DNA from: Lachnospiraceae bacterium
GTDB taxonomy: Bacteria > Bacillota > Clostridia > Lachnospirales > Lachnospiraceae
Length of the DNA: 52,324 nucleotides
Direction of reading: 5' to 3'
Assembly (NCBI GenBank): GCA_017938145.1
Contig: JAGBCB010000035.1
Span: 1-52,324, forward strand
Position numbers and translations under genes: made by a program. Positions 8,051-10,820 of this stretch are shown piece by piece. The notes under the pieces were generated by a model. That model worked only from the letters and a program-made list of their open reading frames with translations, did no database searches and was not told the origin of the DNA. The first letter of the stretch is position 1; every line of letters begins with the position of its first letter.

Positions 8051-8800
8051 ATGTTACATAGTTACAGAGAAAAACTTTATGAATTGTTATCAAAGGAATT
8101 TAACTGTACTCCTGCTGATTTCACCAAACAGGAAAACATACTGACAGTATCTGCATTACAAGACGGCCGCCGTATGTATAGTAAAGAAAAATATTTCTTT
8201 CACATGGTCACTTTGGGTGGCAATGCAGTGCTGACGGCAGAGGAATGCCTGCATCCCTTTTTAAAAGATTTCATGAAAGACCGCGCCGGTCATTGGCTGT
8301 TTGAACTGCCGAATCTTTTACCGCTTCAGCAGGAATTGAACCGCTTTGGATATACTCTGACTCAGACCTACCACATGTTTCTTCCGGCGGAGCAGACGGA
8401 ACCCAAAAAGAACTATGCTGTGAAATGGTTTTTCGGCAAGGAAGAGATTTCACAATTTTACGGGGATGAACGTTTCCACAATGCTATCTGTTCCGAATAT
8501 CTGCCGCACCGGCCGGATAAAATGGTGGTGTGTGCCTATGATGGTGAGAATATTATGGGCATGGCAGGCTGCTCCGAGGATGCACCGGGCTGGTTGCAGA
8601 TTGGCATTGATGTACTGCCGGAATACCGTTCCAAGGGTGTGGCTACTTATCTGGTAACTTTGTTAAAAAATAAAATTCTGGAAGAGGGTAATATTCCGTT
8701 TTACGGCACCAGCCTGTCGAATTATCATTCCTGGAATATTGCGCTGAATTGTGGGTTTCGTCCGGCATGGGTGGAAATCGGAACAGAGAAGAGAAAATAA
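8051..8800 (+). CDS. GNAT family N-acetyltransferase
   Basis: Protein of 249 residues of a type common in Lachnospiraceae. It starts MLHSYREKLYELLSKEFNCTP, with an N-terminal domain of about 120 residues and a C-terminal GNAT fold. The acetyl-CoA loop is DVLPEYRSKGVATYLVT and the final strand region is NIALNCGFRPAWVE. ATG 8051 follows AAAAGGACAAAACC. The open frame extends upstream to 7985 inside the DUF6144-like gene, but those residues do not match the family. The substrate is unknown. A leader-regulated argS transcript begins directly after it from its own promoter. Confidence 0.85.
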   Translation: MLHSYREKLYELLSKEFNCTPADFTKQENILTVSALQDGRRMYSKEKYFFHMVTLGGNAVLTAEECLHPFLKDFMKDRAGHWLFELPNLLPLQQELNRFGYTLTQTYHMFLPAEQTEPKKNYAVKWFFGKEEISQFYGDERFHNAICSEYLPHRPDKMVVCAYDGENIMGMAGCSEDAPGWLQIGIDVLPEYRSKGVATYLVTLLKNKILEEGNIPFYGTSLSNYHSWNIALNCGFRPAWVEIGTEKRK

Positions 8801-8803
8801 CAC

Positions 8804-8832
8804 TTGCAATTTTATTCTATCTATGTTACAGT
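8804..8832 (+). promoter_or_regulatory. Promoter of the argS leader transcript
   Basis: TTGCAA (8804-8809), a 17-nt spacer and TACAGT (8827-8832) with an extended TGT before the -10. Transcription would start near 8839, about 30 nt before the leader peptide. Confidence 0.65.
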
Positions 8833-8869
8833 ACATTCAACATTCCGCAAGGAAAAGGAGTAACTAAAA

Positions 8870-8932
8870 ATGAACAACCTTTATGTAAACAGCTTAAGAT
8901 TAAGACGCAGATGCAGACGTAAGTTCCTGTAG
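8870..8932 (+). CDS. Arginine-rich leader peptide of argS
   Basis: A 20-codon ORF preceded by AAAAGGAG (8853-8860). It begins MNNLYVNSLR and continues LRRRCRRKFL, with six Arg codons (R10, R12, R13, R14, R16, R17) in the last eleven positions. Its stop codon is part of the first attenuator stem. It lies directly upstream of arginyl-tRNA synthetase. Ribosome stalling on the Arg codons would report charged tRNA-Arg shortage. There is no peptide function to infer beyond this. Confidence 0.75.
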   Translation: MNNLYVNSLRLRRRCRRKFL

Positions 8933-9063
8933 CTCATGCAAAATTACCGCATGACTACAAGGTGTACGTCTTGTTTTCGTGCGGTGCTGTTGTTTATATA
9001 AAATAATGCAGAACCGCAATCAATTTGGCTTTCAGTCATTTTGAGGGCGGTTCTTTCTTTTTC
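8928..9063 (+). promoter_or_regulatory. argS transcription attenuator (mutually exclusive hairpins)
   Basis: Segment 0 is TGTAG-C-TCATGC (8928-8939). It overlaps the leader stop codon and pairs with GCATGACTACA (8949-8959) with one bulged C. Segment 1, ACCGCATGA (8946-8954), alternatively pairs with segment 2, TCGTGCGGT (8977-8985), with one G-U. Segment 2 (TGCGGT and GCTG) can instead pair with segment 3 (CAGA-ACCGCA, up to 9018). Segment 3, AGAACCGC (9010-9017), pairs with segment 4, GCGGTTCT (9047-9054), followed by TTCTTTTTC, the terminator. A ribosome at the stop codon blocks 0:1, so 1:2 and 3:4 form and transcription stops. A ribosome stalled on Arg codons leaves 0:1 and 2:3 to form and argS is read. 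Confidence 0.7.
9010..9063 (+). terminator. Attenuator terminator upstream of argS
   Basis: AGAACCGC (9010-9017) pairs with GCGGTTCT (9047-9054), with an inner TCAA/TTGA stem, followed by TTCTTTTTC. It sits between the leader peptide and argS, 21 nt before the argS start. Confidence 0.6.
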
Positions 9064-9083
9064 AAAAAATAAGGAGGAAAATT

Positions 9084-10820
9084 ATGAAAAATCAAATCTG
9101 TAACTATTTAACCACATTACTTCCGGAAACCACACCGGAACAGTTTCTTTCCCTATTGGAAACTCCGCCGGAGGCTTCCATGGGAGATTTTGCCCTGCCT
9201 TGCTTTTCTTTTGCAAAGGTGCTTCGGAAGAATCCAAAGCTGATTGCGGAGGAACTGGCAGCAGGACTTACAGAGCAGGCAGACAAACTGGGAATCGAAA
9301 AGGTGGAAGCAGTAAACGGGTACTGTAACATTTTTCTTGACCGTGCTGCTTATGTGAAGCAGTGTCTGGCGACTGCAAACGGAGAGAATCACGGGGTACA
9401 GCAGCCGGGTTCCGGTAAAACCGTTTGTATGGATTATTCTTCTCCGAATATTGCGAAGAACTTCCATGTAGGACATCTGCGGACCACGGTTATCGGTAAT
9501 TCCTTATATAAGATTTACGAGAAACTGGGATATAACGTGGTGCGTATCAATCATCTGGGGGACTGGGGCACCCAGTTTGGCAAGCTGATTGTGGCATATA
9601 AGAAGTGGAGCAGCAAGGAGGAAATTGAAGAAAAGGGAATCGAAGAACTGATGCGGATTTATGTAAAGTTCAATCAGGAAAAGGAAGGGGATGCTTCTAT
9701 GATGGAAGAAGCCCGGAACTGGTTTGTAAAGATGGAACAAAACGACGAAGAGGCTCTTGCTATTTGGAACTGGTTTAAGGATATTAGTCTTGTGGAATTT
9801 GAACGGGTGTACAAGCTACTGGGTATTTCCTTTGATTCTTACATCGGGGAGAGCTTTTACCGGGAAAAGGTGCCGGCGCTGGTGGAGGAATTGAAGGAAA
9901 AGAATCTTTTGACCGAAAGCCAGGGTGCCAACGTGATTGACCTTTCCGCATATGATATGCCACCTTGTCTGATTACCAAGAGCGACGGCGGTTCTATTTA
10001 CCATTCCCGGGATATTGCGGCGGTGCTGTACCGGAAACAGACCTATGGGTTTGAAAAATGTCTGTATGTGACGGGCCTGGAGCAGTCGCTGCACTTTAAA
10101 CAGGTATTCACAGCGGTAAAACTCATGGGAAATGATTGGGCGGAGGATGCCCTGGTGCATGTGCCGTACGGTCTGGTCAGCATGGCAGGAGCAAAGCTTT
10201 CCTCCCGGACCGGAAATATTGTGTATGCAGAGGATATTTTAAAAGAGGCCATGGAGCGGGCAATGACAGCCATTCAGGCGAAGAATCCTGATCTGCAGAA
10301 CAAGGAAGAAACCGCAAAGCAGGTAGGCGTCGGTGCCGTAATTTTCCATGACCTGTTCAACCAGCGGATTAAGAACGTGGAATTTAACTGGGAGGATGTG
10401 CTGAGCTTTGAAGGAGCCACCGGACCGTATGTGCAGTACACCTACGCCCGGGCAAAGAGCATTTTGCGGAAGGCGGGATTTAAGAAAAACACAGGAAACA
10501 AGGCAGATGCTTCTGATACGACGGGAACCTATGACATAAACTATAAGCATCTCACCGATGAAACAAGCTACGCTCTGGTGAAAACACTGTCCGGTTATGA
10601 AGCAGCAGTACAAGGTGCAGCAGAATGCTATGAACCGTCGGTGGTGGCACGGTACATTATTTCCGTGGCAAGTGCTTTTAATAAGTTCTATCATGAGTGC
10701 CCGATTTTAAATGCTTCCGAGGAAGAAAAGCAGGCACGTCTGGCTTTGGTGGATGCGGTGCAGAAGGTACTTAAGGATGCCTGCGGATTGCTTGGTATGG
10801 AGTGCCCGGAGAAAATGTAA
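9084..10820 (+). CDS. argS: Arginyl-tRNA synthetase
   Basis: Class I aminoacyl-tRNA synthetase that charges tRNA-Arg in the cytoplasm. Visible parts are the N-terminal tRNA D-loop-binding domain (about 1-110), the HIGH-type motif in NIAKNFHVGHLRTT (HVGH at 128-131), the KMSKS-equivalent GAKLSSRTGN, and the C-terminal all-helical anticodon-binding domain ending CGLLGMECPEKM. The length of 578 residues is normal. AAGGAGG lies 7 nt before ATG 9084. It is the only gene after the Arg-rich leader peptide and attenuator, so its expression probably rises when charged tRNA-Arg is scarce. Confidence 0.96.
   Translation: MKNQICNYLTTLLPETTPEQFLSLLETPPEASMGDFALPCFSFAKVLRKNPKLIAEELAAGLTEQADKLGIEKVEAVNGYCNIFLDRAAYVKQCLATANGENHGVQQPGSGKTVCMDYSSPNIAKNFHVGHLRTTVIGNSLYKIYEKLGYNVVRINHLGDWGTQFGKLIVAYKKWSSKEEIEEKGIEELMRIYVKFNQEKEGDASMMEEARNWFVKMEQNDEEALAIWNWFKDISLVEFERVYKLLGISFDSYIGESFYREKVPALVEELKEKNLLTESQGANVIDLSAYDMPPCLITKSDGGSIYHSRDIAAVLYRKQTYGFEKCLYVTGLEQSLHFKQVFTAVKLMGNDWAEDALVHVPYGLVSMAGAKLSSRTGNIVYAEDILKEAMERAMTAIQAKNPDLQNKEETAKQVGVGAVIFHDLFNQRIKNVEFNWEDVLSFEGATGPYVQYTYARAKSILRKAGFKKNTGNKADASDTTGTYDINYKHLTDETSYALVKTLSGYEAAVQGAAECYEPSVVARYIISVASAFNKFYHECPILNASEEEKQARLALVDAVQKVLKDACGLLGMECPEKM

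Follow-up and report, generated by a model that had tools for sequence, protein, structure and literature searches.

Control of synthetase genes by leader peptides is already known from several bacteria. In Escherichia coli, the synthetase operon pheST is under leader-peptide attenuation and encodes the only PheRS of that bacterium. The arginyl-tRNA synthetase (ArgRS) gene described here, argS2, is similar to pheST in its leader-peptide attenuation; pheST differs in its amino acid (Phe) and in belonging to Proteobacteria. The preliminary description of this locus had named E. coli pheST as the main instance of such control. This was too narrow, as predictions have been published for a hisS paralog (Naville and Gautheret, 2010; PMC2965389) and for cysS (PMC8632094). 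In bacilli, according to the former report, a His leader peptide is predicted to attenuate hisS* and hisZ, and hisS itself has a T-box. Similar to argS2, hisS* is an extra synthetase paralog of Firmicutes preceded by an amino-acid-specific leader peptide. Different from the Arg leader of Lachnospiraceae, however, the leader of hisS* is for histidine, occurs in bacilli and has a second target in hisZ, whose product is no synthetase (PMC2965389). The uORFC-8-2 motif of the Rhodobacterales cysS genes is described as a predicted ribosome-mediated attenuator that lies before a synthetase gene and, as at argS2, contains cognate codons in tandem as well as an intrinsic terminator. It differs from the argS2 leader in its amino acid (cysteine), its hosts (alphaproteobacteria) and its RNA, which has two prominent stems and a rare third one without covariation (PMC8632094).

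Arginine is also sensed through short upstream ORFs elsewhere. Ribosome pausing at the Arg codons of such an ORF senses arginine in the orf34-speF system of Salmonella (PMC6386406) and in the rbfL system of S. aureus (PMC13009471). The outputs described in these reports differ from that proposed for argS2, being Rho termination and RNase G-dependent stability for speF and a blocked translation start for rbfL, and neither target is a synthetase. In B. cereus ATCC 10987, another report places one of three argS genes under a T-box (PMC2494555). Similar to what is proposed for argS2, this is one of several ArgRS copies under tRNA-charging control, but the T-box senses uncharged tRNA directly, whereas argS2 has a leader peptide. 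No leader peptide of argS was found in the freely available literature searched. With the locus described here, arginine would join the amino acids whose synthetase gene is preceded by a leader-peptide attenuator. It would do so in a Firmicute family, in which one would rather expect T-boxes. The target is the notable part, as it is apparently an inducible second ArgRS that looks dispensable.

The window, i.e., the whole stretch of DNA that was analyzed, comprises 52,324 nucleotides of a Lachnospiraceae bacterium (contig JAGBCB010000035.1). All features of the window given below are on its + strand. The region upstream of argS2 is very probably a ribosome-mediated transcription attenuator that would raise an auxiliary ArgRS when charged tRNA-Arg is scarce. 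This reading draws on a conserved ORF kept in frame, competing helices, their geometry, and a tie to one ArgRS clade whose members are nearly always the second ArgRS of their genome. Comparison supports the attenuator well, and it is judged to be real and conserved.

The leader peptide ORF (8870–8932) encodes MNNLYVNSLRLRRRCRRKFL followed by a stop codon. Its 20 codons include six for Arg, as the preliminary description had reported, and it is preceded by the Shine-Dalgarno sequence AAAGGAG (8854–8860). Codons 12–14, AGA CGC AGA (8903–8911), look like the sensing cluster. Richness in Arg was rejected as stand-alone evidence, as the window has 35 short ORFs that start with ATG and have a ribosome site, and four of these contain at least five Arg residues; Arg-Arg-Arg occurs in the leader ORF only. 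The leader ORF is more than a chance ORF because it is conserved, at 34 loci and together with covarying helices. Further upstream lies a putative promoter (8804–8832) with a −35 element TTGCAA (8804–8809), a 17-nt spacer and an extended −10 element TG-T-TACAGT (8827–8832), the extended element reading TGTTACAGT. A consensus scan returned 2 sites, and this TTGCAA-17-TACAGT site was not among them. The best promoter scores of 26 loci (including the window; L041 was too short) averaged 9.3 vs. 8.4 (sd 0.8) in shuffled sequences, and many relatives have promoter-like sites at comparable positions that score just modestly above shuffles. A promoter before the leader ORF is plausible, and the statistics point to it weakly.

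The leader RNA (8839–9083) has a predicted folding energy of −74.8 kcal/mol, compared with a mean of −50.5 kcal/mol (sd 4.0) for shuffled sequences (z = −6.0), and none of the 200 shuffles was as low. Helix A joins 8915–8921, which is the second Arg pair AGA CGT plus one A, to 8965–8971; the two arms form an inverted repeat and pair across 34 sequences. Hairpin B (1:2; 8928–8959) pairs 8928–8939 with 8949–8959 in the fold as well as in the alignment, and its 5′ arm overlaps the stop codon of the leader together with the codon before it. Helix C (2:3; 8947–8984) pairs 8947–8961 with 8970–8984 and is indicated by an inverted repeat, pairing in 34 sequences and ribosome placement in silico. The antiterminator D (3:4; 8981–9017), indicated by an inverted repeat, the alignment and ribosome placement, pairs 8981–8989 with 9009–9017. 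The intrinsic terminator (9010–9062), recognized from an inverted repeat, a pattern scan and the sequence itself, consists of the arms 9010–9030 and 9034–9054 and a U-rich tract (9055–9062); its hairpin is followed by TTCTTTTT. In the pattern scan, the inner part of the terminator (9028–9048) was one of 3 terminator-like sites in 8500–9300, where 0.8 were expected. In addition, an outer helix F (8880–9002), indicated by the fold and a duplex permutation test, pairs the leader codons around Asn-Ser (8880–8893) with the tail of segment 3 (8989–9002); in the register of the relatives, it corresponds to 8888–8893 with 8986–8991 of the window. In the predicted fold, helix E (8906–8909 with 8980–8983) and helix F together mask segment 3 of untranslated RNA.

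T-boxes are common on the synthetase genes of Firmicutes, which would favor a T-box or another ligand-binding riboswitch at this locus, with the ORF being incidental. The T-box on one of the three argS genes of B. cereus ATCC 10987 (PMC2494555) adds to this. However, the window has no Rfam match at gathering score, the four matches in 8750–9150 were all far below threshold and did not include a T-box, and the ORF is conserved in frame. A T-box was also missing at Rfam gathering score from the 20 argS loci searched. A T-box or known RNA family was rejected on these grounds, and this explanation is very improbable.

ArgRS searches followed by a scan of the upstream regions yielded 27 distinct loci, the window included, with a homologous leader ORF in each and the consensus NSLRRRx(x)RRKLL. 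In total, 34 copies of the element were found in 33 genomes. In the 27 aligned loci, all length differences within the ORF are multiples of 3. The distance from the start codon to the first cluster is 27 or 33 nt, that between the clusters 3 or 6 nt and that from the second cluster to the stop codon always 15 nt; the spacers 3′ of the stop codon vary freely (15–21 and 21–23 nt). The first cluster encodes Arg-Arg-Arg at all 27 loci, as AGA, CGC/CGT/CGA and AGA. The 27 leaders use AGA 88 times, CGC and CGT 24 times each, CGA twice, AGG once and CGG never; CGG accounts for 21% of the Arg codons in 43 long ORFs of the window, a set that may include spurious ORFs. Translation of the leader ORF is hence likely from its pattern of conservation.

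Alternatively, the locus could carry a constitutive partial terminator, and the Arg codons of the leader would exist only as the sequence of a helix arm. The second Arg pair (AGACGT) behaves in this way. It forms an arm of helix A, a G-C pair there is replaced by A-U in 5 of the 34 sequences, and in L049 and L010 the position reads CAT (His), with the helix partner changed to match. Pairing outweighs the amino acid in these two sequences, because the A-U change turns Arg into His. The first cluster behaves differently, as it remains Arg at 27 of 27 loci while changing synonymously among CGC, CGT and CGA, and its invariant AGA bases, on our reading, need no partner in helices A to D. This alternative is therefore very improbable, and an attenuator that reads the first cluster remains the preferred explanation.

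In a MAFFT alignment of the 27 sequences, 91.0% of the cells of B and D, 92.0% of those of C and the terminator, and 97.5% of those of A were paired, compared with 19–59% in slid controls. Their covariation scores were reached by 1, 2, and 0 of 500 shuffles, respectively. The double-change counts on this alignment were not decisive. B and D had 6 double-change pairs, a count matched or passed by 227 of 500 shuffles as well as two slid versions; C and the terminator also had 6, which 27 of 500 shuffles reached, as did one slid version; and double changes in antiterminator D were found at only 1 pair. Double changes are few because the helices are so conserved. The alignment of 34 sequences was made to a covariance model and is hence fitted to A and B, which are 94.8% paired in it, with double changes in 9 pairs and 22 cells; none of 500 shuffles reached any of these measures, and no slid version reached 9 pairs or 22 cells. 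Their pair-type count was reached by 75 of 500 shuffles. In the same alignment, helix A alone was 98.3% paired, with both sides changed in 3 pairs. Helix C, which is not part of the model, was 98.4% paired, as high as none of 500 shuffles; its double changes fell in 2 pairs (reached by 24 of 500 shuffles) and 3 cells (1 of 500). One of the slid versions exceeded both counts, with 4 pairs and 8 cells. The lower 10 pairs of the terminator were 97.8% paired in the 27 sequences and the upper 5 only 61.2%. For helix F, the duplexes of each leader with its own tail averaged −10.3 kcal/mol and those with permuted partners −7.8 kcal/mol (0 of 20000 permutations), although this test is inflated because the sequences are related; the helix was unsupported in three Lacrimispora-like sequences (L046–L048). 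The preliminary description had proposed searching relatives for conserved Arg codons and stems, and both are kept, with compensatory changes.

The effect of the ribosome was modeled by limiting the folding to the RNA ahead of it, cut after the 5′ arm of the terminator, at equilibrium rather than kinetically. With a footprint of +12, the mean probability of the D core over 27 sequences was 0.18 without a ribosome and 0.22 with the ribosome at the stop codon. It was 0.90, 0.87, and 0.77 with the ribosome at the three codons of the first cluster and 0.47 and 0.26 at those of the second pair. With the ribosome on the first codon of the first cluster, the probability exceeded 0.5 in 24 of the 27 sequences, the exceptions being L039, L040, and L041 (0.499 in L041). 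The mean probability of helix C was 0.00 without a ribosome and 0.93 with the ribosome at the stop codon. In the window, the D core had a probability of 0.05 when the RNA was free, 1.00 with the ribosome at the first cluster codon and 0.00 with it at the stop codon. Both the ON and the OFF state, at a criterion of 0.5 and a footprint of +12, were predicted for 18 of the 27 sequences, including the window, vs. 61 of 810 shuffles that kept the D arms. The contrast between the two positions is weaker with a larger footprint, as D was retained at the stop codon in 6 of 27 sequences with +12 and in 16 of 27 with +15. The untranslated RNA was predicted to be ON in 5 of 27. The positions first proposed, in which a ribosome at codons 12–14 leaves free an arm that one at the stop codon covers, are supported by the 24 of 27 sequences that favor the antiterminator with the ribosome at the first Arg. 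The model supports the classical logic of attenuation, in which the first cluster would be the sensor and the second pair mainly a helix arm.

The proposed mechanism would run as follows. A ribosome stalled on AGA-CGC-AGA would let hairpin B form, stabilized by helix A; segment 3 would remain free, and antiterminator D would pair with the 5′ arm of the terminator, so that argS2 would be transcribed. A ribosome at the stop codon would cover the 5′ arm of A as well as that of B; segment 3 would be taken by helix C and the terminator would form. If the leader were untranslated, the outer helices F and E would hide segment 3, and the terminator would form in most sequences. The locus thus combines a short ORF with clustered cognate codons, exclusive 1:2, 2:3, and 3:4 helices, a terminator and folds that are opposite for the two ribosome positions. 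The downstream gene also concerns the amino acid that would be sensed, as an intact argS follows 28 of the 34 copies, in 28 genomes (the 27 aligned loci and L098), an argS relic follows 4 (L094, L082, L091, and L104, of which L104 is only probable) and another gene follows 2 (L101 and L102).

The gene argS2 (9084–10820) is intact, as judged from its ORF, NCBIfam and Pfam, and encodes an ArgRS of 578 amino acid residues. Its product scored 503 bits against NCBIfam TIGR00456 (cut-off 262) and possesses the N-terminal, catalytic and DALR domains of Pfam. All 27 leader-bearing ArgRSs carry the signature KLS[ST]R, and 26 of them the pattern H[VI]GH. In a tree of 72 ArgRSs, the 27 leader-bearing ones group in a single clade (SH-aLRT 100 in a quick search), and none of 500 label shuffles was as clustered. 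Its neighbors are 21 leaderless ArgRSs from the same family, a group with a support of 80; the two groups together have a support of 100. When the housekeeping ArgRS of the congener G001 was used as a query against the 33 leader-bearing genomes, a housekeeping ArgRS was found in 32 of them with identities of 57–100%, the 100% being G001 itself; in G1044 and G1058 it was divided between two contigs, and it was not found in the MAG of the window, which is 78% complete. The identities between leader-controlled and housekeeping ArgRSs were 30–33%. An intact leader-controlled argS occurs in 28 genomes, of which all but the MAG of the window have two ArgRSs (27 of 28), whereas 20 sampled genomes of the same family with the leaderless sister type had one ArgRS match each and, by ORF scan and covariance model, no leader. 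Thus, the enzyme under this switch is most likely an auxiliary ArgRS. The attenuator reading of argS is supported; the preliminary description had missed that this gene falls into a single clade made up of second ArgRSs.

A covariance model of the core matched 10 of 397 genomes of the family, 3 of 295 of the order and 1 of 391 of the class, with the genome of the window in each; the draws overlap, only 10–14 candidates were scored per genome, and the strict filters may lose weak matches. A wider arginine regulon was rejected, as all model matches were at argS or its relics, except L101 and L102. Of 51 other loci searched with the model, 49 gave no match, and the two that did (L082 and L091) were argS relics. 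In L082 (2174–2926) and L091 (2325–2728), the leader is kept and argS is reduced to C-terminal pieces; in L094 (1275–1595, − strand), it is reduced to a C-terminal remnant. The least certain relic is L104 (1474–1784), in which the leader is followed by an ORF of 29 codons. The ArgRS of the window as a query gave no match there, and the first 14 residues of the ORF are 64% identical to the start of the L010 ArgRS (E = 0.007 in a small search). Relics behind a leader suggest repeated decay of the second ArgRS, only probably so for L104. Such loci, together with the second ArgRS in most genomes, point to the leader-controlled ArgRS being auxiliary and dispensable.

More tentatively, the element and argS could form a self-contained back-up module that is silent in normal growth and lost when unneeded, a possibility that we consider rather unlikely as it stands. 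An inhibitor of the housekeeping ArgRS (e.g., an arginine analogue present in the gut or rumen) or the exhaustion of arginine would then switch on an ArgRS of a different lineage. If true, the module would be a system of resistance to ArgRS inhibitors that is read out by arginyl-tRNA. The locus raises the question of which condition makes these gut bacteria need an inducible second ArgRS.

One copy of the element, L101 (1477–2499), lies directly before a methyltransferase gene; its first Arg codon is changed to Glu, and no argS remnant was seen at this locus. A methyltransferase gene in this position would fit an alternative in which the leader is an antibiotic-arrest peptide, and a macrolide-like drug would stall the ribosome at Arg-X-Arg and induce the downstream gene. 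R-X-R motifs do recur in the leaders (RRR, and RLR in the window), and a stall at the third Arg would likewise free the antiterminator in silico. According to PMC8632094, Arg-Leu-Arg is a mark of antibiotic leaders and also of uORFC-6-1, the motif upstream of hflX. Against drug-induced arrest, the gene in the window is argS and not a resistance gene, intact or relic argS genes account for the downstream genes given above, save two, and it is the methyltransferase copy that lacks the first Arg codon. To our knowledge, ArgRS confers no ribosome protection. Arrest by a drug is therefore improbable, and attenuation in response to charged tRNA-Arg is preferred.

L102 (1477–2256), an orphan leader whose helix A has a compensatory change, is the second copy in genome G347 and lies about 0.2 kb before a gene of the penicillinase-repressor type. 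Fragments of the ArgRS C-terminus, about 80–90 residues long, were found in L085 (2426–2740), L088 (2510–2752), and L089 (2492–2776), loci at which no leader element was found; they may be relics or small stand-alone ORFs. Visual inspection of L043 (2329–2470) revealed an inverted repeat that lies between the terminator of the attenuator and argS and is possibly a small mobile element. Finally, a Clostridiales-1 RNA (RF01699) is located just 3′ of the leaderless argS in L021 (3194–3345).
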